In this document: piece by piece, positions 4,401-45,984 of the stretch
Layout: every line of letters starts with the position of its first letter
Numbering within the stretch: the stretch's first letter is position 1
DNA from: Artocarpus heterophyllus
Lineage: Eukaryota > Streptophyta > Magnoliopsida > Rosales > Moraceae
DNA length: 64,000 nucleotides
Direction of reading: 5' to 3'
Assembly: GCA_025403435.1 (NCBI GenBank)
Contig: CM046341.1
Coordinates: 22,532,230-22,596,229, forward strand
Made by a program: the position numbers and the translations under genes
The notes under the pieces: generated by a model
What the model was told of the DNA's origin: nothing
Databases searched by the model: none
What the model saw: the letters and a program-made list of their open reading frames with translations, nothing else

Positions 4401-4510
4401 AGTAATATGCACATCACATATCATATCATATAACATTATTTATTAATAACATTCCTTAACAACGTTACTAACTTAACGTGGTTCGTTACATAAAATAGGT
4501 GGGCATTACA
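1497..4510 (-). repeat. Tekay-1 3' LTR (LTR A)
   Basis: It matches 9386-12363 throughout. In element orientation it begins TGTAATGCCC at 4510 and ends TTTCA at 1497. It contains a CAT trinucleotide run at 2380-2408 and two GC-rich clusters of TTCGGCAGGCCGAA-like palindromes, at about 1849-2010 and 4130-4262, in an otherwise AT-rich LTR. Open frames inside it are not genes. Confidence 0.9.
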
Positions 4511-7282: not shown

Positions 7283-8389
7283 TTACATGTGAAGCTCTTT
7301 TAATTCTGCCGGGGCCATTCTGTAAGGCGCTTTAGAGATTGGTTCGGTGTTTGGAGTGAGCTCAATCTCGAATTCAACTTCTCTTTCTGGCGGTAGACTC
7401 GTTAGGTCTTCAGGAAACACATCTTTATATTCATGAACAACATGTACATCTTCCATTCTTGTCTTTCCTTCTTGGCTTTTGTCTACAACGTTCGCCAGAT
7501 AGCCCATGCAGCCACTTGCTAAAAGCTTCCTTACTTTCATTGCCGATAGAAACATGTTGGGTTTCTTTCTGGACTCGCCAACATAAACGAATTTCTGATC
7601 ACCTTCAGGATGGAAGACCACCTTTCGTTTTCGGCATTCGATTGCGGCATTATACTTACTTAGGAAATCCATCCTAAGAATCATGTCGTAGTCATGCATG
7701 TCGATCACAATGAGGTCGACGAAAAGTTCCCTATCAGAAATCCATAGGGGTACTGTACGCAAATAATGCGTGGATAATATCACTTCCCCAGAGGGTAGTG
7801 TCGTAGTGAATCCCTGTCTCATTGGCTCTAAATGAACCCCTAACTTCTTAGCATGTGACATAGACACAAAAGAATGCGTGGCACCCGTATCAAAAAGAAC
7901 ATAAACATCATTACATAAGCTTGTTATCTGACCTGTGACCACATTGGAGGCTTCAGCAGCCACTTGTTCTTTTGTCATGGCGTAGATTCGAGTGTTTTTC
8001 GGTGGGGCTTCAAGTCTCCCTTGACTAATCAGTGGCCCTTCAAGGGAGGCTTGTATCTGATGCAGCTGGGCTTGAGGAGGAGGTCTCTACGGGGCATTGG
8101 CATTCATCAATTTGGGGCAGTTCTTTACAAAATGGTCTTCACGCCCACATATAAAACATTGGTTTGTCCCCAATCGGCGTTCCCCTGGATGTTTCTTTCC
8201 ACATTTGGCACATGATTGAAATCGTCTTTCATTATTGTTGCGCTGACCATCATTGTGCCTTTTGTTGTCTTGACCCTGCTGTTGTTGAGGATTGACCTTC
8301 CTCTTGTTATTCCTCCAATTCTGGTTGTTGTTGTTGCTGTTGTTGTTGTTGTTGTTGTTCCTGTGGGGAGGGCAGTTCTGGTTGTTGGC
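7283..8389 (-). pseudogene. pol: Tekay-1 zinc knuckle and aspartic protease
   Basis: The frame follows gag after a TAG at 8390-8392 and carries an Asn-rich linker, then a CCHC knuckle CFICGREDHFVKNC at about 8118-8159, then a second in-frame TAG at 8087-8089. From 7978 it is open for 231 codons with the retropepsin motif DTGATHSF at about 7868-7891 and the flap-side region LPSGEV. It ends at a TAA (7283-7285) in KELHM*LKELL, where Tekay-2 has a Gln codon in [11 protein letters not shown]. The protease site looks functional; the stops do not allow a full Gag-Pol. Confidence 0.87.
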
Positions 8390-9380: not shown

Positions 9381-9385
9381 AAGCC

Positions 9386-12363
9386 TGAAACACCCCTTAA
9401 TTCAGACAGTCATAGATGTCGTTACATACATACGTTCATACTTCCTTAAACTTTAAACATGTAAATAATATCAAACTTAATCATTATTATTGATTTTAAA
9501 AGTACTTAAACTTACATTACCAGGATCCATTCATACGTTTTTTTTTTCTTAAACTTAACATTGTTTCGAAAATCATTGTTTAATTTATTCCATATCATAA
9601 TTTACTCAATTATACTTAAATTAATCATAAACTTGTTTAATATAATAAGTTTATCAAATTGTAAAATCAGGACTTATAAAACTATATCACATTAATTCTC
9701 TTTGATCATCACATCATTTGAAATCCATTTATTCCCACAGTTCGGCAGGCCGGAGTTCCCTCAACCGGCAGGCCGGCAGAGGCTGTGCAATTTGGATTAA
9801 AAATTCATCCAAGTTTGACAAGCCGAAAAATTCGATCGGCAGGCCGAACTTCTGGTCTTCGGCAGGCCGGCCATAGAATTTGGCAGGCCGTCTGAGACCA
9901 AATTCCTTTGGAAAACTTAACTTAAAACATACCAACTTTACGTAAAATATAGCGGAAGTTCATAATTCATAAAAAATGATAAAATATCTTATAAAACCAT
10001 AATATAAGTATTCTTAAAAACTTAACATAAAAATATGTTCAAAAAAAAATATAACTTGATTAAATCATAAAATCATTTTTTCTTGGCGTGCTTCCGGTTA
10101 CAATTCATCGTTTATGTTGCTCACACGCCTTCCCATGTCCTCCTCCTATTCCATAACTCTCTTACCCTTATCTGCAACATGACATATAAAACATGATTAA
10201 GCTAACGCTTAGTAAGTACATATATTCTCACAATTTAAAATATTTCATAAACATCATCATCATCATCATCATCATCATTGTCATCGTTTCATGAAAGTGC
10301 CTTAAGCACAATTTCATATAACATATCTTTTGTAACGTTAACCATTTTAAAACTTATTCCATTTTATCTTATGGGCCCAAGTGTTGCACCATAAGCATCA
10401 TCATAAGTGCACTGTCATGAGAGGAGAAGGGTAGCTAATCCCAAACCAAACATGACATCATAACATTGGGTGTGCAACACTTATTAGGTGATACATATAT
10501 ACATACTTTTCATTCTTTGAAACATGTCATCATCATACATGCATATCTTTAAAATCATGAAAATCTTTCATAAGAAATCCCTTATGGAAAATCATCATAA
10601 AATCATCATGAATATCCTTGTAAACATATAATCAAACCTTGTAAAAACATGTGTCATGTTGCAGGTGAGAATGTACTTACCTTAACGATAGCTTACTTAA
10701 CCTTAAAAATGCACTTGGTGACGATGCTGCAGTCTCGATGTGCTCGCTTCCTTGAGTGTTCATGCCATTTATCTATTTAAAGATGCAATAAAAATCAATA
10801 CTTATCATGAAATATCCATACACATAACATTCATTCATATAATATTCATTCATAATATACTCATGTATACATTCATCACATTTCAAACATATCCCATAAT
10901 CATCATCATAAAATTATCATCGAAACATGTAAACGCTATTCATAACATGCTTCCTTAAAAATTAAAACATTTCATATATTGTAAACATGAAAATCTTTTG
11001 AAAAACATTTTCTAATAATTTAAAACACATATATTTAATTTAAAACTGCATACAATCATCATATTATCATGCATAAAATCATTTTATTATCATAAAATCA
11101 TGTAAATACATAAAACATTTAATAAAACAAAAATCCTAAAAACAACATTATCAAAACATCTCATAATCATAAAATACATTCATCTTACATACTCATACAT
11201 ATGCCTATTTTAATAACTTTTCATGATAACATCATATTTACCCCTTGAATGAACATTACATTTTTATTTATCAAAATTAAACAGTAATGTTTTACTGTGA
11301 GGATAGAAGACAGAAATATCATTTTTCATTAAAACATTGAAATGACAGTGAAACTTAGAAAAACATCTCATAATATATACATAACATCATACATAAAAAA
11401 ATCGAGACAAAATACAATACCTAACAAGGAGAAGAATTTCTTTTCAAAAATACCAGAAAAACCGAATTCATACCTGGAAATATCTTCTCAAAACCCATTG
11501 ATTTTAATCAACGAAATATGACTTTTCTTATAATTTTTACGAAGAATTTTCGTGAGAGAGAGAAAAGCAAAGCACTCATGGGGAAGAGAAGAGGAGGAGA
11601 AAATAATAAGAGAATGTCTCAGAATCGAGAGAAATTATCTGAGGGAAGAGCGTTAAAATTTTTTTCTAAGGTAATGTGTATAGTGAAGAGTCATTACTCT
11701 TCATTAAGTCAGAAATTTCTGACTGTTAAGAGGGTGATTGGCGTGGGAAAAAGGAAGAGAAAAAAAAAAAGAAGGTGAAACATCATCAATCTTACCTTAA
11801 TTTACCTTCTAAAAATAGGAAACCTCTTAATATAATACAAATCAATACAAATCAAATCCTTTAATTTCCTTAACTGATAAAAACATTTCATTATTATGCC
11901 AATTAATCACATTAACTCACCCACTTAATGTAATTAACTCAGCCATAATTTTGGTGAAATTTTTGTTGACTGCTTGTCAGCCGTGTTCGGCCTACCGGTT
12001 TTCCCCTTCGGCCTGTCGATTCCAGTAAGTTCGGACCTGCCAGTGGGTTTCTTCGGCCTGCCAATTTCGGGCAGTCATTTCGGCCTGTCGATCTTAAAAC
12101 TTTAGCATGTCGATCTGTCATTAAATGCCATAACATAAAACATTCATACATCATTGCTTCATAAATAATCATATATTTAAAACTTCACATGAACACTAGA
12201 GCACAACGATCCTATGCGGTCGTCATCTGTCACCAAACTTGACATAAAAAGTTAGTAACATGCACATCACATATCATATCATATAACGTTATTTATTAAT
12301 AACATTCCTTAACAACGTTACTAACTTAACGTGGTCCGTTACATGAAATAGGTGGGCGTTACA
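9386..12363 (-). repeat. Tekay-1 5' LTR (LTR B)
   Basis: Direct repeat of LTR A. It lacks about 18 bp present in LTR A inside the first GC-rich palindrome cluster (9737-9895), which looks like a slip between the repeated GGCAGGCC units. The second cluster is at about 11983-12115. The CAT run is at about 10251-10277. No genes. Confidence 0.9.
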
Positions 12364-12368: not shown

Positions 12369-13998
12369 TCTGGTTCCAATCCTAACATTGGGAATGGAAA
12401 GAAGCAACTGACAAAGAATGGGAAGTCTTCTATTCCTGCTACTACCAAGAGTAAGAAGAAGAAAAAGAAGAACCCAAAGAAGCTTAAGTGCTTCTTCTGT
12501 GGAAAGGTCCAGCATATTAAGAAGCATTGCAAGGACTTCCTTTCCAAAGGAGGTAGGTGTGATCTTCTATATTTAGAAACTTGTTTGGTTGAGGAATCCA
12601 GTGATATTTGGGTCATAGATTCCGGTGCAACTAATCATGTTTGTGTTTCTCTGTAGGGGTTCAAAGAAACAAGAAGTCTGCTGCATGAAGACTTCACGCT
12701 TCGGATGGACGATGGATCCTTGGTCTCAGCAAAAGCAGTGGGAGACGTCCATCTTTATTTTGATAATTATAGGAATTTATTTTTGCAAGATTGTTTTTAT
12801 GTTCCTAAGTTTAAAAGGAATTTAATTTCTGTAGCTTGTTTATTTAAAGACTCCTACTTGGTTTCTTTTAATGATAAAGTGGTGATTCGTAAAAACAAAT
12901 CTTTTATCTGTTCTGGATGGATGCAAAATAATCTATATTTTATCAAACCTAATATGGACTTATTGCTTAATGCTGAGATAAATGATAATAACTCTAAAAG
13001 ACTTAAAACTTCTCACTCTAATAAGAATTATCTTTGGCATTTGCGCCTTGGTCATATTAACCTGAATAGGATTCAAAGGTTGGTAAGGGATGGACCATTA
13101 AGTCACTTAAAGGTGGAATCTATACCTCAATGTGAATCTTGTTTGGAGGGTAAAATGACTAAAAGACCATTCAGGTCTAAGGGCAATAGGGCCGAAGGGG
13201 TTCTAGAACTTGTGCGTAGTGATGTTTGTGGACCCATGAACATCCGAGCACGAGGAAGGTATGAGTACTTCGTCACTTTTATTGACGATTACTCAAGATA
13301 TGGGTATGTGTACCTGATGCACCACAAAATCAAAACTTTTGACAAGTTCAGGGAGTTTCAGGCTGAAGTGGAAAAGCAATTGGGTAGACCCATAAAGGCA
13401 CTTCGATCTGAGGTGGGGAATATCTTTCTGATGAGTTCTTGGAACACTTATTAGAGAATGGGATTTTATCCTATTTGACTGCGCCTAGGCACTCTATAGC
13501 AGAATGGCATAGCGGAGAGAAGGAATAGGACTTTGTTGGACATGATCAGGTCCATGATGAGTTATTCATCATTGCCTTTATCCTTTTGGGGATATGCGCT
13601 ACAAACCGCATGTTATCTTTTGAACAATGTGCCTTCAAAATCAGGTCCCTAAAACTCCTCACGAGTTGTGGACAGGTAGGAAGACATCCTTAAACCATAT
13701 TCGCATATGGGGATGTTCGGCTCATGGCTTATTTAAGGATCCGAATAAGTTGAAAGCACGTTCGGAAGTTTGCGTGTTTGTAGGATATCCAAAAGGGACT
13801 AAAGGGGGTTATTTTTATAACCCAAAGGAAAATAAAGTCATGGTTTCAACTAATGCAATTTTCCTTGAGGAGAGTTACATGGACGACTTTAAACCTCGAA
13901 GCAAAGTGGTGCTTGAGGAGTTTAGGAGTGATCCAATCACTCCAGAAGTTCCAAATGAAACCGTTCCTGATCAGTGTAGAAAAAGCAAACAAACCTGA
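12369..13998 (+). pseudogene. pol: copia-1 zinc knuckle, protease and integrase, broken
   Basis: Resumes copia-1 after the Tekay-1 insertion. A Lys-rich linker leads to the CCHC knuckle CFFCGKVQHIKKHC (12489-12530). The protease motif WVIDSGATNHVC has its catalytic Asp at 12618. A TAG at 12654-12656 (SL*GF) breaks the frame. From 12705 the frame is open for 249 codons: pre-integrase H-H-C-C region (LRLGHINLN, CESCLEGKMT) and the integrase core start FVTFIDDYSRYGYV. The second catalytic Asp region is damaged (LRSEVGN, where copia-2 has LRSDQGGEY), followed by a frameshift and a stop. Further integrase text (PHELWTGRKTSLNHIRIWGC) is at 13627-13998 in another frame. Confidence 0.85.
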
Positions 13999-15521
13999 AC
14001 AACAACCTCAGGGGCTTCAGGGTAGTGGAAGGATCAGGCATCAACCTGAGAGGTATATGTTCAATGGGGAGGTCTTCTTGGCTGAATCAGATGAACATGA
14101 CAAGGATCCTTATACTTACGCAAAAGCTATAGAGGATGTTGATTCAAAACTCTGGACAGAGGCCATGAATATAGAGATGAAGTCTATGGAGGCTAATCAT
14201 GTCTGGGAGCTTGTGGATCTTCCAAAAGGGGTAAAACCCATAGGGTGTAAGTGGATCTACAAGAGGAAAAGAGGAATGGATGGGAAGGTCGAAACCTTTA
14301 AGGCTAGACTAGTAGCTAAGGGTTATACGTAAAAGAAGGAATCGATTATGAGGAAACCTTCTCCCCTGTAGCCATGCTTAAGTCCATCCGGATTCTCGTA
14401 TCCATAGTTGTCGCTTTCGACTACGAGATTTGGCATATGGATGTCAAGACGGCTTTTTTAAATGGGTATCTTGATGAGTCCATTTATATGAAACAGCCAG
14501 ACGGCTTCAAGGTCACGGGTCAAGAAAATAAGGTTGTAAGCTGCTAAAGTCAATTTATGGACTTAAGCAGGCTTTTCGTTCTTGGAACATAAGATTTGAT
14601 CAGGTGATCAAGACTTATGGGTTCTCACAAAATGTGGATGAACCATGTGTTTACAAACACATTAAGGATGGGAAGACAAACACATTAAGGATGGGAAGGT
14701 GGTTTTTCTACTACTCTATGTAGATGACATTCTGCTAATTGGCAATGACGTTGGGGCATTGTCATCGGTCAAATTATGGTTGACCAAGTAGTTTGACATG
14801 AAGGACTTGGGTGAGGCTAATTTTGTTCTCGGTATCCTAATCTTTCGGGATAGGAAGAAAAAAATGATAGCTTTGTCTCAGGCCGGCTACATAGATAAAA
14901 TTCTCAGGAGGTTTGCAATGAAGGATTCAAAGAAAGGTGGGAACCATCTAGGTCTGGAATTACTCTTTCTAAGAAAGACTCTCCAAAGTCTTATGAAGAA
15001 AGAGAATACATGAAGAAGGCCTCGGCTGTGGGTAGTCTCATGTATGCCATGTTTTGCATATGATCGGACATTAGTTATGCGGTCAAGATTGTAAGTCGAT
15101 TTCAGGCGGATCCAGGAGCGAACCACTGGGTTGCGGTAAAGCATATTTTCAAGTACCAGCGAAGGACTCGAGGGTATATGCTTGTATATTCAGGTGAGGA
15201 CTTAACTCCTCTAGGATACATTGACGCAGATTTTCAATCCTGTCTGGATTCTACGAAATCGACTTCAGGTTTTGTGTTTACTCTAGGCGGCGGTGCCATT
15301 AGTTGGAGAAGTGCTAAGCAAGATTGCACTTCGGATTCAACGATGGAGGCCGAGTATGTGGCAGCTAGTGATGCTTCGAAAGAAGTAATGTGGCTCCGCA
15401 AGTTCCTTGGGGATCTTAATGTAATTCCTTAAATGGATAAGGCAGTATCACTATACAGTGATAACAGTGCGGCGGTAGCTAATACTAAGGAACCGAGATT
15501 TCACAAGAAGAGCAAGCATAT
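13999..15521 (+). pseudogene. pol: copia-1 reverse transcriptase and RNase H, broken and 3'-truncated
   Basis: RT starts around 14130 (WTEAMNIEMKSME, CKWIYKRKRGMDGKVETFKA), with a stop after AKGYT at 14330-14332. It continues with YEETFSPVAMLKSIR, WHMDVKTAFLNGYL and the intact YVDD box at 14717-14728. Several single-base shifts and a 23-bp tandem duplication at 14653-14698 disrupt it. RNase H is seen at 15178-15432 (GYIDADFQSCLDSTKS, DSTMEAEYVAASDA) and then SLYSDNSAAVANTKE, cut at 15521 by the Athila-1 LTR inside KKSKHI. The last part of the element and its 3' LTR are not present to the right. Confidence 0.85.
14653..14698 (+). repeat. 23-bp perfect tandem duplication in copia-1 RT
   Basis: The 23 bases from ACAAACACATTAAGG at 14653 are repeated without change at 14676-14698. 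Copia-2 has a single copy at the equivalent place (about 30180-30200). Because 23 is not a multiple of 3, this duplication alone shifts the frame ahead of the YVDD box. Confidence 0.9.
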
Positions 15522-17573
15522 TGGTCTCGCGTCTATTTACGCATTTTAAACTAACCTCAAGCATAAGGTTGTCTCAAGTAATATTTACTCGGTGAATCCA
15601 AGGTCGAACCCACAGGAAATGATTTATTCAGTTCTAGTACATGTATTATATTAACTTTTTCTTTTTATTTTAGCTGAAAATTTTGAGGATTAATATTTAT
15701 TATTCACAGAATGTATTTACAATATTTACACATTTTTACAACATTTTTCATTTTTTTAATTTTGATAATTTGAAACTTTAATAACAAGAAATGCAATCAA
15801 TAACTTTAGCAGAGTAACAACAATAATAACAACAATTTAACAATAATAACAGGACTAAGGTTCGAAGGTTCTATTCTGACAATTATCTTCAATATATTTT
15901 AGTTTCGCTTTTTATTTATTAGTTGATTTAAGTGTATACTATGCCATCTTATGTTGACCATAAATCAGGATTTACCAAGCATTTACTGTGCCATTCCATG
16001 TCTATAATGTAGCAAAAACACAACTTAATAAATAAGCAGCATTTCAACATAACTTAACTAAACTAACAACCAAGATAGTAAGTTAAGCATTTACCGAGCC
16101 ATTCTCTGTCTACGAGTAATCAAGGTCCTCCCAAGCATTATCCGCGTCAGTCTATGTCTTCGATAAATCAGAACCGTAATTTTGGCAGAGTTCTAGCTAA
16201 GAAAATATTGAAATTCTAAGTTTTCTAAGAAAATATTTTGGCATTACAACAGCTTAGAAAACTAAGAAAAACCTAAAAAATATTTAAGATAATTTTGCTA
16301 GAATTTTCCCCTCTCCCCTTAGCTAAAAAGAAATTTAAAAAGACATAATTAATAAAATACTACTAATATTATTGAGCATAATTTTTACAACATAAACTAG
16401 AAAATATTTTACAAGAAACTAGACTGAAAACTGGAATAAAAACTAGACTATAACAAATACAACAGTATTTTCATACTATGAGAGGGGATTCTCAACTGAG
16501 GCAAATGCCTCGGTATTTATAAGGAATCAGATTTACTAACGTCCATTGATAATTAATGCTTTTTCCTATTGAAAGTTGACCGATTTGAATTATTTTCTTC
16601 TTCTTTCACGCTGATCCGCGTTGGTGAGAATGCAAGTTTGAGTTTGTAATCCAGTGTGACGTAGACCAGACCAGCACGGAACAGGCACGATCTGAACCGT
16701 TCAAAATGAGATCCAATGGCTGTCAGATGCGGGCAAGATGGGCCCTAGGTGGGACCAAGATTTAAGGCCGATGGATGAGTCAAAGTATTCAGATCTGACG
16801 GTTCAGAGAACGGATGCACATGGACACGACCGTACACGATTGGACACGCCTGTTGCACCCTCTAAGACACGCTGCAGCTTGTTGGCGCATGTGATGCACG
16901 TGCCAATCATATCTCGACACGTGGACCGCACTGTAAGATTCCGCTGATGCATCGGTTGACACGCGTCTCTTCCTCGGACGGCTGAGATTAATTTGACAGT
17001 GAATCCGATGGTCATTTGATTTCCAATTTTATTCGTTTTGATGTCGTTTTACTCCGTTTTTCCTCCAGATTTCAAATCTAAAATCACAATCACACTAATA
17101 TTAATTATTTTACAAACATAATATTTGTTAAAAATATTTATTTTACATTAAAACACACAAAATTAAATAAAAACTCCTAAAATTTTCAGTCTCTTACGGT
17201 TTAGCACAGATATAATTTTTATGACTTGGAAATATTTTTAAAAATTACTAAAAATATAAGAAGACATATTTATAAACTTAAAACACACTATCAAACACAC
17301 TAAAACTCAAAATAAAATAACCGTATTACTTTTATGGTTTTGACTATTTACAGACTAGACACTTATTTAACACACCAAAATGACTCTAAAAATTACTAAA
17401 AATATTATTAAACATAAAAACACACTAAAAATGCATTTTTAAACACATTTTCACACCAAGACACAAAAATACTTATTAACACAGAATGCTATTAATTAGA
17501 GGATTTAATGAGAAATAAAAGCGTAAATAAATGATTTAAGCCTTAGAAAATGTACACTTTTATAGTCTCATCA
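15522..17573 (-). repeat. Athila-1 3' LTR
   Basis: In element orientation it begins TGATGAGACTATAAAAG at 17573 and ends CGAGACCA at 15522. The first 600 bases (plus coordinates) match 25296-25917. The U3 part at about 16600-17050 is related to both Athila-2 LTRs. It contains ACGT-core motifs such as CACGTG at 16918-16923. Frames inside it are not genes. Confidence 0.88.
16512..16524 (-). promoter_or_regulatory. Probable LTR TATA box, Athila-1
   Basis: On - the sequence reads CCTTATAAATACC, a good plant TATA box about 1,050 bp into the LTR. Athila-2 has CTATAAATAG at the matching place in both LTRs. Upstream G-box/ABRE-like CACGTG sites suggest bZIP/bHLH control (inference). Confidence 0.6.
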
Positions 17574-17585
17574 CACCCCCTAACC
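17574..17585 (-). other. Polypurine tract of Athila-1
   Basis: On - this reads GGTTAGGGGGTG directly before the LTR start TGATGAGAC. Athila-2 has GGTTGGGGGGTG at the same position. Confidence 0.85.
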
Positions 17586-19321
17586 AGCTTATTGCTAGTC
17601 TCTAGCAACTAAAGTGATAAAACTTAAAACAGGCAAAAGATTTTTTTTTTTTTATAAACTTGCGATTCCTCATTGATTTCCCTCAGGGTTTATCTCATAT
17701 TCATGCCTCAAAGTAAAGATGTAAACACTAACTAAGTTATGATTCATTTCTAAAGTTCGTCAATTATTTAAGATGAATTTTTCTCTCTGTGTGTGAATTT
17801 CTATTACTAATCAATGCATATTAACCAGATAAATTTATATTAATATATCTTAATTTATTTAAATAAATTCTTATAAACTTATTTTTCATCCCTCTCTCCA
17901 CTAATGTAGAATAACACCTTGTTAAAGACCTTTTAGGACTTTATTCGGCTTGTAATGTAAGGCTTGGGTTAAAGGCATGATGGAAGATATATTTGAGGCT
18001 TAGTTTACCTATAAGACACTTACAAAAATCCCGAACCTTTAAAATGTAAAATCCAATTCCCAAAGTTTATAATCCCGAATTCGAAATGAATTTTCCTTTG
18101 TCAACCACTTTTTATTTAACTTTCTTCTTCTTCTTCTTCTTCTTCTTTTGTTTTTTTTGTTTTTTTTATAAAATAACTAATGAGTTACGTACATATTTTA
18201 CAGAGGTAGCTGATATTCTTAACTCATCCTAACCTCATAAATCCGAATTCGCTTGAAAGAACAAATGCCTTATGAGTGAGAGGTACAAGAAAAGGATTAT
18301 GAATTTATTAAAAAGGCTAGGCTTAATATATGGGTAACAAAGAAAATAGAACATTAAGCATAACGAAGTAACTAGGGATATAGAATGTAAACAGGTTAGC
18401 TTCAAAGGCTCAAACGATCCAAAGATGGCCTAAATTATATCTATAACTTAGTGTTAATCTAGGATTTCATCTCAAGAGGGATTCAAACAAGTTATAAGAT
18501 TTTATAAAAATAAACTAAATCATACTAACATAAACAGTCTCTAAATTAATATAACAAATCATAGTGCAAGATTAAGTGTTCAAACTTTGGAAAAATTTCA
18601 TCCTAAACATATGGCAAACTAAAGAAACTAACATAAACTTAAATAGTATTTAAAATTTACCATAAGTGATGGAAATGATATAATATTGATATCGTCATTG
18701 GATAGGAGGCAAATCACCAAAATATTTTTAGATTTTTAAATTTTTTTTTATTTTTTTATTTTTTGAGTTGTTTTTTTTTTTTTAATAAATGCAATGCAAA
18801 CACACAGTTTTTTTTTTTTACAATCATGTAGAAACACGTTTCAAGAATGCTAGTCACTCCATTACTCAGCTATTTCTACCAACATGAAGATGCGTTTCAA
18901 GAAGAATAAATACTCCTTACCTCAGCCATCTTCAAACTTTGATGCTACAAAAGAAAGATGTAGAGATGAGAATTTTACAAACACAAAGGACTTCATTTTC
19001 GGACCATTATCGAGACGTTTTTCAGGACAAAACCTTCACTCAGCCATCTCGACCTATGAACACATGAATCTTAAAGTCTTACAAACAGCACACTTTTTTT
19101 TTCGCTTCGTTTTTAAAACTAGTCCTAGATTCAATCACAAAAGAAAAAAAAAATTGACACAACCTTCTCCCCCCAACCTAAATTGAACACTATTCCCAAT
19201 GTTTAACAAGATTAAGTAAGAAGACTAACAACATATAATTACAAGGCTGGTTATTCAAAGACAAACGCACAAACAAAGACAAAAACAATAATGTTATAAG
19301 TAAAACTAAAAGAGGTAGAGT
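17586..19321 (-). other. Athila-1 3' non-coding region
   Basis: AT-rich, with homopolymer runs and a TTC microsatellite at 18122-18148. No credible coding frame on either strand; the 100-codon + frame at 18884 is low-complexity. It contains a second purine tract at 19161-19180 (- strand) that is shared with Athila-2. Confidence 0.6.
19161..19180 (-). other. Internal polypurine-like tract shared with Athila-2
   Basis: On - the 20 bases TAGGTTGGGGGGAGAAGGTT. The matching site in Athila-2 (44251-44270) differs at one position, although the flanks are far less alike. Its resemblance to the terminal purine tract suggests a second plus-strand priming site or a relic of one (inference). Confidence 0.6.
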
Positions 19322-19959
19322 TCAGAGAGAAAGATCCCAATCTTGTTTGTGTTTTCCGCAGAACTTTGATGTTGCAGTGACCGCTTCAGGATCAATGACG
19401 TGCATTTTTTCGAGCAATTCCTCTACAATAGTGGCAGAGATAAAAATCTTTCTTCCTGACTCATCAAGAAACTTTTGTTCCACAGCATGATCTAAAAAAC
19501 TAAGCAAATTGTCAAAGTAACCATTTATATTTAACAAACCAACAGGTTTAGAGTGTAGTCCTAACAATTTCCAACTAGCAATGGCAAAAAGTTCTTCTAG
19601 AGTTCCTAAACCTCCAGGCAAATCAATGAAAGCATCAGAAGCAAACTCATGTCTCTTATTCGCTTAGGCATACCTACAACTATTTTTTCAACACCAATGG
19701 TAGGACCACATAAACGACTTTGAGCAAGGACACCTGGAATAATACCTAAAGCTCTAGTACCTCCAGAACGTCTTCCAGCAGAGACAGTACCCATTAAACC
19801 TAGACTACCTCCTCCATAGACAAGGTTTATCTTTTTCGTAGCCAAGACATAGCCTAAATGAAATGCAGTTTCTATGTAATCAATGCCTTTTCCTGATTTA
19901 GTACCACAAAACACATAGATATTGTTGAACTTTAAAAATGACTGGGACGAGGAATCCAT
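19322..19959 (-). pseudogene. LOG-like cytokinin riboside 5'-monophosphate phosphoribohydrolase, one frameshift
   Basis: Two overlapping - frames (19959-19606 and 19621-19322) form one protein of about 212 residues, the usual length of plant LOG proteins. Part 1 has the LOG/TIGR00730 nucleotide-fold start YVFCGTKSGKG, then KINLVYGGGSLGLMGTVS and RALGIIPGVL. It reaches MPKRIRDM, which aligns with the family's MHxRKxxM, the basic residue being kept. One base is missing at about 19646-19648; the other frame then resumes as FASDAFIDLPGGLGTLEELF, containing PGGxGTxxE, and ends ...KPVGLLNINGYFDNLLSFLD... to a stop at 19322-19324. LOG enzymes release active cytokinin bases from their nucleotides in the cytosol/nucleus (family knowledge). 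Plant LOG genes normally contain several introns and this copy has none, so capture from a spliced RNA is likely. The orientation is the same as Gag. With the shift it is probably inactive here. Confidence 0.85.
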
Positions 19960-20573
19960 AATAATTACTAAGACAAAGACTTCTCTCTTTTTTTTTTTTT
20001 GACTGACTCTATCTTACAAATTCGCTCTGAGAAAAACTTAAGAACTAAAAGGATTTTATAAAAACCTAAAGAGAACGTTGGGTAAAATTAAATAAAGACA
20101 GCTGTGATGACATACAAGGACAGATAAATGTGACACCCCTGCAGACAACTTGTACCTGACAACACTATTAACCTTTTGACAAACTAGACTTTACTGTACA
20201 ACTTTTGACAAATGGGACTAAATTTTAAAATTCGAAGCAAAGCTTATCTTACACGACACACAAGGTACCTACCGAAGAAAATTATGCATCTGACAAAAGA
20301 AGAAAAGTCAAGATATTATTATTATAAGATAAACGGTACTATCACAATTATTAAACAACAACTGTATAAATCACAAAAATAAAAATCTTTTTGTTGATGA
20401 AATTTTATTCGAGAATGAGTTGAAAAAAACTTTTGTTCATCAAAATGTGTTTTTAGAAATTCCGTTGCTCAGCCGCTTTGATGATTTTTTTCATTAAAAC
20501 TATGATCATACCTCGAATAAATTTTTAATTTTTTTTAAGACAAACAAACAAAGAAACACAGAAAAATACCTTA
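19960..20573 (-). other. Spacer between the two cargo ORFs, with LOG upstream region
   Basis: No coding frame. On - it holds a possible poly(A) signal AATAAA (20403-20408) for the upstream ORF, then AT-rich sequence, then a TATA box 92 bp before the LOG ATG and a short leader containing an A-rich run at about 19989-20000. Confidence 0.5.
20051..20066 (-). promoter_or_regulatory. Probable TATA box of the LOG-like ORF
   Basis: On - the sequence GGTTTTTATAAAATCC lies about 92 bp before the ATG at 19959. A start site about 30 bp further on would give a leader of roughly 60 bases. Judged on composition and position only. Confidence 0.45.
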
Positions 20574-20696: not shown

Positions 20697-21125
20697 CTAG
20701 GGTTGTTTCATAGCCCCCCAAACGTATCCACTTAGATGGGACTCAAGAGAAACTCGGAGATCTTTTAAGTTTTCATTCCTAAGACCATTTTTATAAAACT
20801 GAATTTTATCGTCCCTATTTCTAGGTACGAAACCAGGTGAGGGACATTTTCCAGAATAAGTTTGACGAGAACATTTATGACATTTTGACTCCATACGACT
20901 AGCTCTTCTTTTTCTAGCACACAGACTTATACCCATACCAGGCAAACCTACATTATTTACATCACTTGAACGAGCAAGACCTTCTATGTACATCTTAACA
21001 TTAGTAGGAAGCTTAAAACGTGAAAGTACCCAAAGACGAGTGACTCTAGTTTTGTACTTCTTTCTGATCTCTCTTTGAGAAAGCGAAGGGAAATATTTCT
21101 TTAAGTGCTCATATTTCGGATCCAT
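20697..21125 (-). CDS. Cysteine-rich basic protein resembling plant-virus nucleic-acid-binding proteins
   Basis: 142 codons on -, with the ATG at 21125 the first after a TATA box and CT-rich leader. The N-terminus is basic (LSQREIRKKYKTRVTRL). Next comes a short helix-like part (LPTNVKMYIEGLARS), then a Gly-containing turn, then an arginine-rich motif CARKRRASR followed by CHKCSRQTYSGKC and a hydrophilic tail. This order (LP...A, ARKRRA, CxxC plus a later Cys) is the layout of the small cysteine-rich proteins at the 3' end of carlavirus- and allexivirus-type genomes. Those are nucleic-acid-binding proteins, several of which suppress RNA silencing (family knowledge). The match is by motif only. 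A Gag CCHC knuckle is less likely because the spacing and ARM motif differ and Gag has its own knuckle upstream. It lies where pol would be in an Athila element. Function here is inferred, not shown. Confidence 0.6.
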   Translation of the reverse strand: MDPKYEHLKKYFPSLSQREIRKKYKTRVTRLWVLSRFKLPTNVKMYIEGLARSSDVNNVGLPGMGISLCARKRRASRMESKCHKCSRQTYSGKCPSPGFVPRNRDDKIQFYKNGLRNENLKDLRVSLESHLSGYVWGAMKQP

Positions 21126-21834: not shown

Positions 21835-22988
21835 TTAATCTATAACTATGATTTCAGTTTCTGGTTCGGAGTCAGAACCGTCAATGTTGATGACTGTTGG
21901 AAGAGCTGCTCTAAACCTTCCCAAAAGATAGCACTCCCAAAAAGTTAAGTTGCCAGCAGCTGCAAAGAATCTTTGCTGAAATTCTTCTTCATCCATGAGA
22001 TCATACATGAGGTCATCCATAGTGTAACCCATCACCTCATCCTCAGGTCCTTCTTCAAAAACTTCATTTTCACATTCAGCTTCAAAATTCAAATTTTTAG
22101 CTTCAGGAGATTGGTCAAAAACATTCATAGGATGGTCATCAACTTTGGGTGGAACATTCGAATCAAAAGAATTAGCCAAATCAGCCAAGGGATCAACAAA
22201 CGTTCCAGAAGTATTGCTCTCAACAAAGTTCACTTCCCATTTTCCAGAGGGTGATTGTGCCATGTTAAAAACGTTGAACTCTGAGGTCATATTTTCAAAA
22301 GACAATTTTAGTATTCCATTTCTACAATTAATCAAAGCATTAGAAGTTGCAAGAAATGGACGACCTAAAATGACAGGAATTTGAACATTTGAATTTGTGA
22401 TAGGTTGTGTATCCAAAACAATGAAATCTACTGGGTAGTAAAATTTATCAATTTGGACTAGCACATCCTCGACAACACCTCCTGGAATTTTTACAAATCG
22501 ATCAGCTAGTTGAAGTGTGACAGAAGTTGGCTTTAGTTCACCTAGACCTAATTGCTGATAAACATAATAAGGTAAGAGGTTGACACTAGCACCAAGGTCT
22601 AACAAAGCATGTTCAATTTGAGTATTTCGATAATGCAAGAAATTGTGGGACAACCAGGATCCTTGTATTTCAATGATGAATCATGTTGAATGATGGAACT
22701 AACATTCTCAGCTAAAAATGCAGTTTTAGTCACATTATGCTTTCTTTTAATTGTACAACAATCTTTCAAAAATTTAGCATAAGATGGGACTTGTTTAATT
22801 GCATCTAAAAGTGGACTGTTAATTTTGACTTGTTTGAACAGTTCAAAAATCTTAGCATTTTTGTCAAACTTCTCTTTTGAAAGCAAAGCATGAGGAAATG
22901 GAATCTTTGGAACAAATTTCTCTCTTGAAACACTCTTTTCTTTATCAGAATTTTCCTTATCACTATAAATTTGATCACCACTTTTCAA
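21835..22988 (-). pseudogene. pro: Athila-1 protease region (Gag C-terminus plus retropepsin), broken
   Basis: Frame 22988-22599 is the Athila pre-protease part (FPHALLSKEKFDKNAKIFELF, INSPLLDAIKQVPSYAKFLK). A shift near 22600-22650 leads into frame 22653-21835, which has the aspartic protease motif ALLDLGASVNLLP, GLGELKPTSVTLQLADR and IPVILGRPFLATSNALI. All are standard Athila protease wording; the active-site Asp is kept with DLG in place of DTG/DSG. After the protease comes an acidic tail (MDDLMYDLMDEEEF) ending in EPETEIIVID and a stop. An RT would normally follow here; none is found. The terminal IIVI core with acidic flanks looks like a SUMO-interacting motif (inference). Confidence 0.8.
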
Positions 22989-24470
22989 AGTTGAATTAAC
23001 TTTCTGATCTTTTAAAAGATAAGTTTTATCAACAGTTTTTCCACTTCGAAGAGTTGTAATAAAATTAACAGTTTCTTGTTGTGACTGTGAACTAGAAGAA
23101 GCAATTTCATTTGCAGATGGATAATGTACAGGTTGAGCAGGAAATTTGCCTTTTTCTTGAATGCAAAGGGAAGAAGTGAGTTTAGAAATGGATTCTTAAT
23201 TTCATGAATGTCTTAAGAAGTGCGAGTGTTATGAACTTCCTGTTTTTGAATGAATGATTTTTGAGCCTGAATGAAAGTTTGCAAAGTGTCTTCAAGAGTT
23301 TTGACTCAAGATTGGAGATTTTCAGAAAAATTTTGTGGAGGCCTTTGAAAATTTTGAGAATTCAATGGAAATGATGGACGGCCTTGAGAGTTTTGTGGTG
23401 GAAATGGTGGTGGTGGTTGATATTACTGTTGTGGTTGATCATTTCTCCAACTAAAATTGGGATGGTTTTTCCATTGTGAATTGTATGTGTCAGAATGTGG
23501 GGATGGAAATGGCTTTCTAGGTGGGTCCAATTGATTTGTGTAATTCACCTGTTCATGGGACTCTTCCTTAAAAATTGGGCATTCATAAGTTGAGTGTCCT
23601 AGGGTTTGGTAAACACTGCACAAAATTTCAATTTTGGGTTCTTGGACATTCCTTCGTTCCATGGCTTCAATCTTTTTAGTCAAACATGCAATTCTAACAC
23701 TTAGATCATTTTCTTGACTAAGTTGATGGACACCTCTTTGAGCATTAGCAAGATTAGATCTAATTGAGCCTTCAGAATTACTATGTTGCCAATATTGAGA
23801 GTTATCGGCCAAATTTTCAAGGAAATCTAACGCTTCATCAGGTCCATTATCAAGGAATTCTCCATTACACATTGTTTCAACAAATTGACGGGTTTCAAGA
23901 GTTAAGCCTTCATAAAAAAAAACTAATGTAATGCCATTTTTCAAAACCATGATGTGGGCAAGAATTCAACAAATCTTTAAATCGTTCCCAGCATTGGAAA
24001 TAAACTTCTTTTGCATTTTGGGAAAAATTTTGAATTTGTTTTTTCAAAGCATTAGTCTTATGTGTTGGAAAGAATTTTTTCAGAAACTCAGTTTGCATTT
24101 CTTGCCATGTACCTATTGACCTAGGTTTTAAAGAAGTAAGCCAAGTTTTAGCTTTGTCTTTTAAAGAAAAAGGGAAAAGCTTAAGCTTAATAGTTTCATT
24201 TGAAACTTCTTGGTTAGTGAAGGTAGCACAAACATCTTCAAACTCTCTAAGGTGCAGATATGGATTTTTAGATTCTAAGCCATGAAAATTGGGAAGCAAG
24301 TTGATCATTCCAGGTTTCAACCTAAAGTGATGAGCATTGAGAGGAAAAACCAAACATGATGGAGTGGATTCACGGGGTGGTTGCAAATAATCTCTCATTG
24401 AGTGAACAACAGGATTGATGATTTGTTGATTAACAATATTTTCATTATGAACACTTTCATCATCAGCCAT
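22989..24470 (-). pseudogene. gag: Athila-1 Gag, broken
   Basis: Start MADDESVHNENIV at 24470 is preferred because the frame upstream (to 24566) is leader-like. The Gag core is clear: YLQPPRESTPSCLVFP, FHGLESKNPYLHLREFEDV, KDKAKTWLTSL, CWERFKDLLNSCPHHGFEKW. A one-base length change in a T run at about 23915-23924 moves the frame to 23950-23423. This continues FFYEGLTLETRQFVETMCNG and a damaged CCHC knuckle (CSVYQTLGHSTYEC, the second Cys now Tyr), then a Pro/Gln/Asn-rich stretch. From 23422 to about 22989 several frames carry further Gag text with stops. Structural particle protein, cytoplasmic; not functional in this copy. Confidence 0.85.
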
Positions 24471-25271
24471 TTTTGGTGAATTTGAAGACACAACAGAGAC
24501 GAAATGTGATTTTAAACTTTTCCTAACTAACCTACGACTATTAGACTCACGAAACCAAACTGGCATACAAATTATTTAAATATTTACAAAATTTTATAGA
24601 CAAATACTAAGCTTTTCTCCACTCAGGGAGAGCAGAGTAGTGAATGAAAAGTATCTGCCTTATTGATTTTGTGAAGTTTGCGAACTATATTTTTCAAGAA
24701 TGTCCCCAAGAAAGATTGGTGGTGCTAAGGCTCCTTAAAAACCAATTTCCTTGACAGAACAATGTTCCAGGAATGACTAGTGTTGGGAGAATCTCTAAAA
24801 GTGAACCGGTTATGAGAAAGAATTCCGAACTGGTACCAGTCCCCAAACAAAACTTTCTCAAAAAATACTTTTCACAAAAACACAATTTGTTTATTAAGTA
24901 TTATGGAAAACCTAATCTAAAATCTTATGAAGTTTTATTTCTAAGGCAAAAACCTTAAACTAGCAAAATAAATATTTTACAGAAGAAATGAGAGAAAAAA
25001 AATTTATTTTTTATTTTTTTAATTTTTTTTATTTTTAATTTTTTTATATATTAAAATAGTGACGTGGATAGTAACTACTACAAATAGTAACTTACAGAAA
25101 ATGCATGCAGATTCCTACGTGAACAGTACTTAATTCCTGCAAAACAGAAGATATTAACAAAAGAAAAGAAATAAAACAAAAGAATAGAAGAGTTAGTAAT
25201 ATATAAAAGAAAAATATAAAGAAAAAGAAAATATATTACACAATATTATACTACACTGAAAAGCAATACTG
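24471..25271 (-). other. Athila-1 untranslated leader
   Basis: Lies between the primer site and gag. AT-rich with homopolymer runs; no gene. A part near 24610-24660 resembles the leader of Athila-2 near 45740-45800. Confidence 0.6.
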
Positions 25272-25289
25272 TCCCCGGCAACAGCGCCA
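25272..25289 (-). other. Primer-binding site of Athila-1 (tRNA-Asp type)
   Basis: On - it reads TGGCGCTGTTGCCGGGGA, one base different from the Athila-2 site at 45963-45980. This is the usual Athila priming sequence. Confidence 0.88.
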
Positions 25290-25295
25290 AAAACT

Positions 25296-25917
25296 TGTTC
25301 TCGTGTCTATTTATGCATTTTAAACTAACCTCAAGTATAAGGTTGTCTCAAGTAATATTTATTCGGTGAATCCGAGGTCGAACCCACAGGGAAGGATTAT
25401 TCAGTTCCAATACATGTATTATATTAACTTTTTTCTTTTTATTTAAGCTGAAAAATTTGAGGATTAATATTTATTATTCACATAATGTATTCACAATATT
25501 TACACATTTTTACAACATTTTTCATTTTTTTAATTTTGATAATTTGAAACTTTAATAACAAGAAATGCAATCAATAACTTTAGTAGAGTAACAACAATTT
25601 AACAATAATAACAGGACTGAGGTTCAAAGGTTCTATTCTGACAATTATCTTCAATATATTTTAGTTTCACTTTTTATTTATTAGTTGATTTAAGTGTACA
25701 CTATGACATCCTATGTCGACAATAAATCAAGATTTACCAAGCATTTGTTGTGTCATTCCATGTCTATAATGTAGCAAAAACACAACTTAATAAATAAGCA
25801 GCATTTCAATATAACTTAACTAAAATAACAACCAAGATAGTAAGTTAAGCATTTACCGAGCCATTCTCTGTCTACGAGTAATCAAGGTCCTCCCAAGCAT
25901 TATCCGTGCCAATCTAG
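25296..25917 (-). repeat. Athila-1 5' LTR, truncated
   Basis: Matches the 15522-16150 part of the other LTR and then stops at about 25917, where CACTA-related sequence begins. Some 1.4 kb of the LTR, including the promoter, is gone. Confidence 0.85.
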
Positions 25918-28299: not shown

Positions 28300-29730
28300 A
28301 GGATCTAAATTTGCGAGATTGTTTTTATGTTCCTAAATTTAAAGGAATTTAATTTCTATAGCTTATTTATTTAAAGACTCCTATTTGGTTTCTTTTCATA
28401 ATAAAGTGGTGATTTGTAAAAATAAATCTTTTATCTATTTTGGATGGATGCAAAATAATCTATTTTTTATCAAACCTAAGATGGACTTACTGTTTAATGT
28501 TGAGATGAATGATAATAACTCTAAAAAACTTAAAACTTCTTACTCTAATAAGACTTATCTTTGGTATTTATGCATTGGCCATATTAACCTGAATATGATT
28601 CAAAGATTGGTAAATAATGAACCTTTAAGTCACTTAAAGGTGAAATCTATACCTTAATGTGAATCTTGTTTGGAGGATAAAATGACCAAAAGACCATTCG
28701 GGTCTAAAGGCAATAGGGCCAAAGGGCTTCTAGAACTTATGTATAGTGATGTTTACGGACTGTTGGACATCCAGGCATGAGGAGGGTATGAATATTTCAT
28801 CACTTTTATTGACAATTACTCAAGATATGGGTATGTGTACCTGATGCACCACAAAAGCGAAACTTTTGACAAGTTCAAGGAGTTTTGGGCTGAAGTGAAA
28901 AAGCAATTAGGTAGACCTATAAAGGCACTTCGATCCGATCAAGGTGGTGAATACCGTTCTGATAAATTCTTAGGACACTTATTAGAGAGTAGGATTTTAT
29001 CCCAATTGACTACGCCGAGCACTCTGTAGTAGAATATCATAGCGGAGAGAAGAAATAGGACTTTATTGGACATGGTCAGATCTATGATGAGTTATTCATC
29101 ATTGCCTTTGTCCTTTTGGGGATATGGACTGCAACCTGCATGTTATCTTTTGAACAACGTGCCTTCAAAATCAGTCCCTAAAACTCCTCACAAGTTGTGG
29201 ACGGGCAAGAAGACATCCTTAAACCATATTCGCATATGGGGATGTTTGGCTCATGTTCTGTTTAAGGATGCGAATAAGTTGGAAGTACGTTCAAAGTTTG
29301 TATGTTTGTAGGATATCCAAAAGGGACTAAAGGGGGTTATTTTTATAACCCAAAGGAAAATAAAGTCATGGTTTCAACTCATGCAACTTTCCTTGAGGAA
29401 AGTTACATTGATGACTTTAAGCCTCGAAGCAAAGTGGTGCTTGATGAGTTGAGTAATTCAATCACTCCAAGGGTTCTGAATAAAACCATTTCAATCAGTG
29501 TAGAAAAACCAAACAAACCCAAACAAGAACCTAAGAGGCTTCGGCGTAGTGGGAGGATCGGCCGTCAACCCAAGTGGTATATGTTCGATGATGAGGCCTT
29601 CTTAGCTGAACTGGATGGACATGACAGGGATCCTTACACTTATGCAGAGGCTATGAAGAATGTTGATTCAAAACTCTACACAGAGGCCATGAACACAGAG
29701 ATGAAGTCTATAGAGACTAATCGGGTCTAG
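28300..29730 (+). pseudogene. pol: copia-2 integrase region
   Basis: Frames at 28385-28657, 28835-29029, 29066-29311 and 29302-29730 read on in copia order. They give the pre-integrase part (INLNMIQRLVNNEPLSHLKV), a core with FITFIDNYSRYGYV where copia-1 has IDDYS, an intact second motif KALRSDQGGEYRSDKF, then LWTGKKTSLNHIRIWGC. Frameshifts separate the pieces and a stop replaces a Trp codon in NRV*ELMDLP at 29728-29730. Asp-to-Asn in the first catalytic block would abolish activity. Confidence 0.82.
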
Positions 29731-31206
29731 GAGCTTATGGATCTTCCCGAAGGGGTAAAACCCATAGCGTGTAAGTGGATCTACAAGAGGAAAAAATGAG
29801 TTGATGGAAAATTCAAAACCTTTAAGGCTAGACTAGTAGTTAAAGGATACACGCAAAACGAAGAAATCGATTACGAGGAAACCTTTTCACCTGTAGCCAT
29901 GCTTAAGTCCATCCGGATTCTCTTATCCATAGCTGCCACTCTTGACTATGAGATTTGGCAGATGGATGTCAAGACGGCTTTTTTAAATGGCTATCTTGAT
30001 GAGTCCATTTATATGGAACAACTAGATGGGTTCAAGGTCAAGGGTCAAGAGGATATGGTTTGTAAGCTGCTAAAGTCAATTTATGGACTTAAGCAAGCTT
30101 CTCGTTCTTGGAACATAAGATTTGATCAAGTGATCTAGACTTATGGGTTCTTTCAAAATGTGGATGAGCCATGTGCTTACAAACACATTAAGGATAGGAA
30201 GGTGGTCTTTCTACTACTCTATATAAATGACATTTGCTAATTGGCAATGACATAGGAGCATTGTCATCGGTCAAATTATAATTGATCAAGCAGTTTGATA
30301 TGAAGGACTTAGGTGAGGCTAATTTTGTTCTCGGTATCTAGATATTTCAGGATAGGAAGAACAAAATGATAGCTTTGTCTCAAGTTAGCTACATAGATAA
30401 AATTCTCAGGAGATTTGCAATGTAGGATTCTAAGAAAGGTGGGCAACCATCTAGGTTTGGAATTACTTTTTCTAAAAAGGACTCTCCAAAGTCTAAGGAA
30501 GAAAGAGAATACATGAGAAAGGTGCCTTATGCTTTGGCAGTGGGTTTTCTTATGTATACCATGCTATGCACGCGATCGGATATTTGTTATGCATTTGGGA
30601 TTGTAAGTCGATTTCAGGTAGATCTGGGACCAAACTACTGGATTGCGGTAAAGTATATTTTCAAGTACCTGAGAATGACTCAAGGGTATATGCTTGTGTA
30701 TTCGGGTGAGGATTTGACTCCTCTAAGATACAATGACTCGAATTTCCAATCCTGTTTGGATTCGAGGAGATCGACTTTAGGTTTTATGATTACTCTGAGC
30801 GACTGTGCCATCAGTTAAAGAAGTATAAAACAAGATTGCACTTCAGATTCAACGATGGAGGCCAAGTATGTGGTAGCTAGTGATCTTCGAAAGAAGCAGT
30901 GTGGCTTTGCAAGTTCCTTGGGGATCTTGGCGTAGTTCTTGGTATGGATAAGGCGGTATCACTTTACTGTGATAATAATGCGGCGGTAGCTAATACTAAG
31001 GAACTAAGATTTCACAAGAAGAGTAAACATATTGATCGAAAGTATCATGTGATAAAGGACTTCATTGAGGGCGGGCATGTCACGACGTGCAAAATCGCTT
31101 TAGAGGACAATTTAGCTGATCTATTCATGAAGATACTTAATAGGAGAGTCTTCGAGAGGCATGTGGAAGCTATGGAGGTACGAGATTTGTCATATTTACT
31201 CACTTA
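29731..31206 (+). pseudogene. pol: copia-2 reverse transcriptase and RNase H
   Basis: RT text FKARLVVKGYTQNEEIDYEE, then 29899-30138 (MLKSIRILLSIAATLDYEIW, QMDVKTAFLNGYLDESIYM). The catalytic YVDD box reads YIND at 30220-30231 and is followed by a small deletion. RNase H follows at about 30690-31206: FQSCLDSRRST, DSTMEAKYVVASD, then an intact end VSLYCDNNAAVANTKELRF, HKKSKHIDRKYHVIKDFIEG. This ends at a stop just before the purine tract and shows what copia-1 lost at 15521. Confidence 0.85.
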
Positions 31207-33236: not shown

Positions 33237-33524
33237 TGGGGGAGATCCTAGGTCTAGTTCCACAGAAGCAGCCATATGTGGCAACTCCCAATGGCAGGAA
33301 ATTTTCCCTTTAAATTTAGAATTGGTCTTTCAGCATGGGTCTGAGCATGTCAGGAACATTAAAGACAAGCCGCCCTAGGGATGCTATATCGGATGGTCTG
33401 CCATGGGGTTTCTATGTCTTGCCATCTTCGGCAAAGTTCAAGCGTAGGAATTGGGTCTCCCTTTGACCTACCCTTGATTGGGAGGAGTTTGCCCCCAATT
33501 GTAGGAGTCACATGTCCTTGCAAT
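33237..33524. repeat. Degraded repeat X, left part
   Basis: Continues at 51514-51915 after the Tekay-2 insertion. Both parts together match, inverted, 57629-58320 (shared words CATATGTGGCAA, CTTTCAGCAT, CCTAGGGATGCTAT, GTTTGCCCCC, AGTCACATGT). No coding frame. It is probably the terminal part (LTR or 3' UTR) of a TAT-type gypsy element. Confidence 0.7.
33520..33524. repeat. Target-site duplication of Tekay-2, left (GCAAT)
   Basis: GCAAT before the LTR, GCAAC after it at 51514-51518: a one-transition mismatch. The inverted X copy at 58020-58026 has no duplication here, which supports a clean insertion. Confidence 0.75.
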
Positions 33525-36500: not shown

Positions 36501-36689
36501 TAATTTACAATGGTAATTGCAAACTATTTAAAGAATGTTTATGATTAAGTAATTATAAAAAAAAAATGTAAGCATGGATCCTGGGTATGTTTGCTAAATA
36601 AAGTTTCAATCATATAGTTTATTTTAAACTTAAAAGTATTAAGAAATGAATGTAACGACATCTGTGGCGTCCGTAGGGGGGGCATTACA
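33525..36689 (+). repeat. Tekay-2 5' LTR (LTR C)
   Basis: TGTAACACCCACG...GGGGCATTACA, about 3.2 kb, matching 48316-51513. GC-rich palindrome clusters at about 33762-33890 and 36291-36462 near the two ends. No genes. Confidence 0.9.
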
Positions 36690-36694
36690 GGCTT

Positions 36695-36706
36695 TGGTAT
36701 CAGAGC
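36695..36706 (+). other. Primer-binding site of Tekay-2 (tRNA-iMet type)
   Basis: TGGTATCAGAGC five bases after the LTR end, identical to the Tekay-1 site. Confidence 0.92.
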
Positions 36707-36902
36707 AAATTTTCGCTTTCAATTCATATTGTCACACGTCAGTCCAAGTTCTCTAAGTATGCTTTAAAGTTAAATGTTAAGATGCAAGTATGATGATAAG
36801 TATAAGATATAGTTGCCTAATGATTAATGCCTTAGTAGTGAAAACCTGTCTCATAAATTAAAAGATTGTTACTAAATTCATAACTCTTTTAGGAAATCGA
36901 CA

Positions 36903-45980: not shown

Positions 45981-45984
45981 GAAT

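Follow-up and report, generated by a model that had tools for sequence, protein, structure and literature searches.

The question raised by a 64,000-nucleotide stretch of the Artocarpus heterophyllus genome (GenBank assembly GCA_025403435.1, contig CM046341.1, positions 22,532,230 to 22,596,229 of the forward strand; hereafter the window) is why a gene resembling those of the cytokinin-activating LOG enzymes should lie within an Athila-like long terminal repeat (LTR) retrotransposon. The answer that we favour, with a confidence somewhat better than even, is that the window holds a member of a high-copy Athila-like family in which no pol was found and which carries a pair of cargo genes, one for the LOG protein and one for a protein resembling the cysteine-rich proteins (CRPs) of plant viruses, and that this pair would likely help the element through weakened silencing and active cytokinin.

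The LOG-like frame occupies positions 19322-19959 of the minus strand, split into two halves that share 19606-19663 but are read in different frames. The 3' half (19322-19663), which contains PGGLGTLEE, matched PF03641 at 1e-24 (87.7 bits, against a Pfam cut-off of 27) and TIGR00730 at 2e-22. The 5' half (19606-19959), which contains GGGSLGLMG and has 94 homologues, matched TIGR00730 at 3.8e-13 and the SLOG family PF18306 at 1.4e-7 when taken as 19606-20013. Either half scores below the whole-protein TIGR00730 cut-off of 96.35, as expected of halves. The best PDB match of the 3' half was Arabidopsis At2g37210 (7.3e-27), and At5g11950 was also among the best solved relatives; we take these two proteins to be LOG3 and LOG8. 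Unbroken copies elsewhere in the genome encode about 212 amino acids (212 in copy L012) in a single frame without introns. Capture of a spliced host transcript, as the preliminary description of this DNA inferred, is a candidate origin of such a frame. Judged by its domain matches, solved relatives and motif, the window frame belongs to the LOG family, and the preliminary description of this DNA, which reported a LOG-like frame of about 212 codons broken at about 19646-19648 and proposed a profile search of both frames, is borne out on the length and on the break.

Among 30 intact LOGs of the same genome, PGGxGTxxE was present in 28 and, by a loose pattern, all 30 carried Arg at the alignment position that we take to be that of the catalytic residue. 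The intact protein is predicted from these features to be an active cytokinin riboside 5'-monophosphate phosphoribohydrolase. PGGxGTxxE is named as a LOG motif in the accessible part of PMC11593424. A different substrate appears unlikely to us: the protein would then be a general nucleotide 5'-monophosphate phosphoribohydrolase, or a SLOG-type nucleotide sensor acting, while reverse transcription is under way, on nucleotide pools or on a stress signal. Such a role would fit the SLOG match of the N-terminal half and the placement of the copies in a clade apart from Arabidopsis LOG3 and LOG8, but the motif and the Arg position are kept, and the best solved matches of one relative, P0106, are LOG-type proteins of plants and bacteria.

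About 0.65 kb upstream of LOG lies a second cargo gene (20697-21125, minus strand), whose product resembles the carlavirus-type cysteine-rich nucleic-acid-binding protein. Its open reading frame (ORF) in the window is shortened, encoding 142 amino acids versus 184 in unbroken copies of the main subfamily, and with LOG and the CRP-like gene broken alike the window copy is presumed inert. When 12 sequences of the CRP-like family were scanned, Viral_NABP (PF05515) was matched by 10 and Carla_C4 (PF01623) by nine at E of 1 or less, with best values of 6e-5 and 5e-5, and the Carla_C4 cut-off of 20.9 bits was passed by P0096 (22.6) and by the copy L010 (23.6). Of 40 copies fetched, 38 contained a CRP frame 60 amino acids or longer, the two exceptions being sequences of only 2.5 kb. 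The CRP-like gene preceded LOG on the same strand in all 20 copies taken at greater length, with a gap of 606-769 nucleotides in 19 of them and 3.6 kb in L023.

Viral CRPs are silencing suppressors, and that of chrysanthemum virus B is a transcription factor that induces hyperplasia, according to the part of PMC12172455 available to us. By analogy, the CRP-like protein is a putative silencing suppressor or transcription factor. The resemblance also raises the possibility that a plant RNA virus carrying both genes was copied into the retroelement and persists there as an endogenous viral fragment, and viral families are indeed the sole Pfam matches of the CRP-like protein below E 0.01. We consider this origin very unlikely, as none of the 41 scanned frames of the window element (of 62) showed a viral domain for replicase, movement or coat functions, LOG groups with plant LOGs, and no relative of either protein was found on viral contigs in pattern-based scans of a collection made up mostly of DNA viruses.

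To place the pair in its genome, we searched the assembly from which the window comes (985 Mb, 334 contigs), taking only scored matches as confirmed and treating first-look candidate numbers as loose. For PF03641, all 150 matches scored, of 4846 loose candidates, lay above the Pfam cut-off; most of them span the entire domain in one frame, and by our own count 124 of these 150, which are ranked by LOG score, contain no stop. The 611-base spacer between the two cargo genes likewise gave matches at 93-100% identity in 40 of 40 scored cases, the window included (596 first-look candidates). A lone chance insertion, with LOG found in the window only, is ruled out by these 150 LOG and 40 spacer matches.

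The window's gag was then used in the same way, and 150 matches were scored, its own among them. For 66 of these, a listed LOG followed on the same strand at a distance of 3-9 kb (median 4.7 kb), compared with six that had one upstream and none that had one on the opposite strand; the count was made against the best 150 LOG matches only, and the other 84 gags may adjoin LOGs beyond those or may have none. LOG copies of the main subfamily also recur at spacings of 9.73-9.89 kb on C4, C6 and C15, close to the 9.77 kb taken up by one LTR plus the internal region of the window element, which suggests tandem elements sharing an LTR. LOG-bearing copies with the same LTRs, whose search the preliminary description had proposed, exist, and some of them keep the LOG frame open and lack the frameshift.

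The pair was also found in a second class of transposon. Three loci, L010, L011 and L028, contain a diverged CRP and LOG pair within DNA that is 93-94% alike among them, the median protein identity to the main subfamily being 57% for LOG and 64% for CRP. Their shared DNA begins at one sharp edge, which reads as the complement of a hairpin, CTAG and then a host T; a hairpin followed by CTAG before a host T is the rule for a Helitron 3' end. Beside L010, where the replication genes were examined, L049 (the 8 kb beyond it) encodes a Helitron_like_N domain (PF14214, 2.1e-49) and a PIF1 helicase (PF05970, 1.8e-53) on the strand opposite LOG. Of 47 genome matches to the terminal 920 bases, 31 start within 3 bases of the Helitron edge; 12 of the 31 reach base 915 or beyond, and many end near base 580-665. 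A start at 661-662 was seen in three matches, and one of these lies only 0.3 kb away from another that ends at 640. Because matches stop at 580-665 and restart at 661-662, the data suggest that the Helitron end joins the leader of the pair near base 660. By these sequence features a Helitron carries the CRP and LOG pair, and in at least one Helitron copy (L010) both genes are unbroken. Beside the Helitron 3' end of L010, positions 4211-4468 (LOG-oriented) are repeated at 7887-8144 downstream of LOG (82%); the repeat is possibly a second Helitron end and a trace of pair capture.

Searches with the L010 proteins brought out a third subfamily. Ten of the best 150 CRP matches were of the L010 type, and stops occur in nine of these ten. 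The other 140, at 75-77% identity, were all full length and stop-free (140/140), many with equal scores. The best 150 LOG matches included many at 62-66% identity, most of them stop-free. Matching the lists by eye shows such a CRP and LOG together at four places, both on one strand and separated by 646-650 nucleotides (C11:4786947-4788759, C27:7781277-7783089, C28:39740122-39741934 and C28:1280994-1282810); with each list limited to its best 150 matches, overlaps should be rare. Of the 150 CRP positions, 54 were compared with the listed gags of the window type, and none followed one of these at 0.5-8 kb. Third-subfamily CRP copies pair on the same strand 6.61-6.63 kb apart at C1:11396525/11403139, C10:35129155/35135776 and C26:2082707/2089335, and the few other close pairs show different spacings. 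As with the 9.73-9.89 kb LOG spacing, this recurrence points to tandem elements sharing an LTR, and a shorter LTR element is therefore the candidate carrier of this subfamily.

To evaluate whether the genes are maintained, nonsynonymous (dN) and synonymous (dS) substitutions were counted by the Nei-Gojobori method. Between the main and Helitron subfamilies, where dS approaches saturation, LOG gave a dN of 0.35, a dS of 1.42 and a ratio of 0.25 (56 pairs, two Helitron copies), and CRP gave 0.27, 1.72 and 0.15 (13 pairs, with a single Helitron copy). Reading these alignments in the two wrong frames gave ratios of 1.01 and 1.78 for LOG and 1.53 and 1.74 for CRP. Given ratios of 0.25 and 0.15 versus 1.0-1.8 in the wrong frames, both genes have likely been kept by selection. 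Within the main subfamily, median dN/dS was 0.41 for LOG (371 of 378 pairs, those with a dS of 0.02 or less being dropped) and 0.45 for CRP (69 of 78 pairs). Of the 40 copies chosen by LOG score, LOG was intact by our criteria in 30, CRP in 14 and both genes in 12. Ranking by LOG score favours intact LOGs, and we therefore also took a sample picked by the spacer, the 20 best of the 39 non-window spacer matches. The 19 LOGs recovered from it gave a dN/dS of 0.27 against the Helitron copies, with a frame-shift control of 0.96.

Several observations weigh against selection for a function of the pair, or against the function proposed for it. The near-saturation of dS and the single Helitron copy behind the CRP ratio are two of them, and the bias of the LOG-ranked sample is another. 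In the spacer-picked sample, LOG sequence was present in 19 of 20 copies and strictly intact in only two, so that the impression of a mostly intact family, which the LOG-ranked copies had given, was overturned. Compared among themselves, these 19 LOGs had a dN/dS of 0.78 (167 pairs), and from the two results together most of the sampled copies near the window's are dead. The link of the CRP-like protein to viral proteins is weak: the window frame matched Viral_NABP at 0.0077 and Carla_C4 at 0.031 (14.7 bits), both under their cut-offs; the basic KRRAR of the CRP-like protein is followed by C-x2-C-x4-C-x3-C, a cysteine spacing other than that of carlavirus CRPs; and the two structure models were both poor, with a predicted local distance difference test (pLDDT) score of 47. 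A search of 5.8 billion proteins brought up only three CRP homologues, none of them plant-named; as the named plants with related LOGs contributed none, the pair may be limited to a small number of plants.

Decay of this kind is what would be seen if both genes were passengers, acquired by chance and of no effect on the element, and the 18 of 20 spacer-picked copies that are not strictly intact fit this explanation, as do the within-subfamily ratios of 0.41 among the best-scoring copies and 0.78 among the spacer-picked ones. On the other side are the constraint between carriers at a dS of about 1.4 (0.25-0.27 for LOG and 0.15 for CRP, versus about 1 or more in shifted frames), the persistence of the pair in two different carriers, and the lack of stops in the listed third-subfamily CRP copies. 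We judge passengers improbable on this balance. Low dN/dS between carriers with higher dN/dS within a sample is the pattern expected of selection during the life of an element and release after insertion.

The wider occurrence of the mobile LOGs was examined by a profile search and a tree. In our count of the best 120 of 7946 matches there were 32 from Reevesia, 19 from Diplodiscus, seven from Populus, two from Xanthoceras and one from Parasponia, and those of Reevesia and Diplodiscus, judged from locus names, are spread over many chromosomes. The tree was built from 50 proteins (seven own copies, 39 of 211 database proteins and four from PDB). The own copies, the proteins of those plants and unnamed environmental sequences formed one clade (support 99/95, 41 rows), which stands beside Arabidopsis LOG3 and LOG8 (100/97), the only two host plant LOGs in the tree. 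A single old capture in rosids is a lead that this topology offers. Because the Populus proteins P0117, P0144 and P0172, which are named LOGL10, fall in the clade of mobile copies, many transposon copies may be counted among the LOG genes of some plant genomes.

Apparent constraint could also arise if LOG were captured repeatedly and freshly from intact host genes, selection then acting on the host genes and not on the element. A search of the own genome with a 95-amino-acid piece of Arabidopsis LOG3 gave 150 scored matches that were all 49-58% identical to it and that we took as mobile-type; no host LOG was among them, which leaves this explanation some room. Repeated capture would have had to pick up an identical arrangement every time, with the CRP neighbour in the same order and at the same spacing, and the seven own copies, which come from both carriers, form one clade (100/99). 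We therefore give it a slim chance at most.

The element itself is, by its sequence, one decayed copy of an Athila-like LTR retrotransposon. The order on the minus strand is a truncated 5' LTR, primer-binding site, gag, protease-like frame, CRP-like gene, LOG, polypurine stretch and 3' LTR, so that LOG stands in sense with gag, between the protease-like frame and the 3' LTR, as the preliminary description had it. Only the R-U5 portion of the 5' LTR remains (25295-25916, recognised by its match to the 3' LTR), its outer portion having been lost, and the primer-binding site (25268-25294, complement TTTGGCGCTGTTGCCGGGGAC) is read from the sequence as of the TGGCGC(C/T)GTTGCCGGGG type, which we take to be typical of Athila/Tat; this motif, with at most two mismatches, occurred in 11 of 20 fetched 10-kb copies. 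The frame for gag (23910-24575) matched PF03732 at 8.6e-21, the open pieces between it and the protease (22599-23195 and 23423-23965, within 22599-23965) had no Pfam match, and the aspartic-protease-like frame (21835-22680) matched PF13650 at 4.1e-4, under its cut-off. The 3' LTR (15522-17579, about 2.06 kb) has TG..CA ends by eye and is preceded by a polypurine-tract-like stretch (17580-17590, by eye); its outer end adjoins a Copia element. The two LTRs, compared over 15521-16154 and 25295-25916, are 93% identical (589 identities in 635 columns, with 14 gaps), and the divergence, calculated by hand as about 0.053 substitutions per site, corresponds to about 2 million years at the plant rate of 1.3e-8 per year.

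Of the 62 element frames of at least 38 amino acids, 41 were scanned with Pfam, and no reverse transcriptase, RNase H or integrase was found; the LOG and CRP frames were scanned separately, and the remaining frames are short or overlapping. Besides gag and protease, the 41 frames gave three weak non-retroelement matches (E 0.01-0.048). Of 20 fetched 10-kb copies, 12 matched the window gag and 16 the window protease, and the same 16 also matched the linker between protease and CRP, which leaves no space for pol there. The Athila ORF-1 domain PF03078 was not among the Pfam matches of the element frames; it occurs in 16% of Athila elements and hence is no general feature, according to the accessible part of PMC6317226.

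Other elements surround this one. The 3' LTR ends within the Copia element at 12782-15526, which the Athila-like element cuts at 15521, by eye close to where the RNase H region of the Copia element ends, and which is 86% alike to a second Copia element at 28310-31037. Another Athila-like element has LTRs at 41391-43178 and 45984-48192 with an internal part of only about 2.8 kb, and its U3 is about 78% like that in the 3' LTR of the window element. Two pairs of repeats of about 3 kb, 1494-4510 with 9383-12363 (95%) and 33522-36690 with 48313-51514 (91%), are probably LTR pairs, and the sequence between the members of the first matches 36623-41391 inverted (79%).

How might the two cargo genes help such an element? 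A relative would provide reverse transcriptase and integrase in trans, active cytokinin would rise through the LOG protein, and the CRP-like protein would weaken host silencing or alter transcription. Dividing host cells would then persist where the element replicates, and more copies would reach the germ line. The effects proposed for LOG and CRP point in the same direction, which makes the idea attractive and is no proof of it, and a benefit through cell proliferation is plausible but unproven. A bolder version, which we put forward tentatively and with the balance against it, is that the pair is a portable two-gene growth kit, made up of a virus-type regulator or silencing suppressor and a cytokinin-activating enzyme, kept by selection and passed between LTR retrotransposons and Helitrons, that enlarges the pool of dividing, replication-permissive cells; it would be the transposon counterpart of the hormone genes of crown-gall T-DNA. 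Should the pair prove active, it would clearly exemplify the manipulation of a host hormone by a transposon, and the idea is directly testable. Most extra ORFs in plant LTR elements are without a known role, and PMC11728184, in its accessible part, says much the same; the two found here have recognisable families, elsewhere tied to cell proliferation or silencing, and as constrained cargo genes they occur together in two transposon classes.

LOG in Gypsy-type elements is already known. Steinbauerova et al. 2011 are said to have described two Athila-like elements with similarity to LOGL4, carried as an extra ORF in the 3' region. The preliminary description knew of no Athila with such cargo, a statement that earlier work does not support. 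A LOG-family (YgdH) domain was reported in LTR elements of Citrus sinensis and C. clementina, and under a looser filter in Populus trichocarpa, all atypical domains of that survey lying in Gypsy-type elements, a result called 'in line with' Steinbauerova et al. 2011 (PMC9289625, accessible part). No report of the CRP and LOG pair, of a Helitron version or of functional follow-up was found in the literature available, which covers subscription journals poorly and for most papers amounts to the title and the opening of the abstract, and the reviews PMC7264820 and PMC13317346 make no mention of LOG or cytokinin.

Among known systems, the Citrus and Populus elements are closest to that of the window, being LTR elements with a LOG-family ORF, but their descriptions, in the accessible part of PMC9289625, name no CRP partner, missing pol, selection test or Helitron version. 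The same part of that survey describes orchid Ty3/gypsy elements with an ORF for an AlkB m6A demethylase, likewise a host-like enzyme that could potentially counter host control; these are large, Ogre-related elements with reverse transcriptase and one enzyme, whereas the window element has two cargo genes and no pol was found in it. The CRPs (NABPs) of carlaviruses, allexiviruses and mandariviruses, as far as PMC12172455 is available, share with the CRP-like protein the Carla_C4 and Viral_NABP matches and perhaps a basic patch beside a CxxC finger, but the CRP-like gene lies in a retroelement and a Helitron, encodes 184 amino acids in intact main-subfamily copies, has another cysteine spacing and has no virus genes nearby in the window. 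Gene-capturing Helitrons, as the accessible part of PMC2575219 describes them, have in common with the carrier of L010 the Rep/helicase genes, the CTAG end and captured genes; unlike them, this Helitron holds a two-gene pair that it shares with an LTR retrotransposon.
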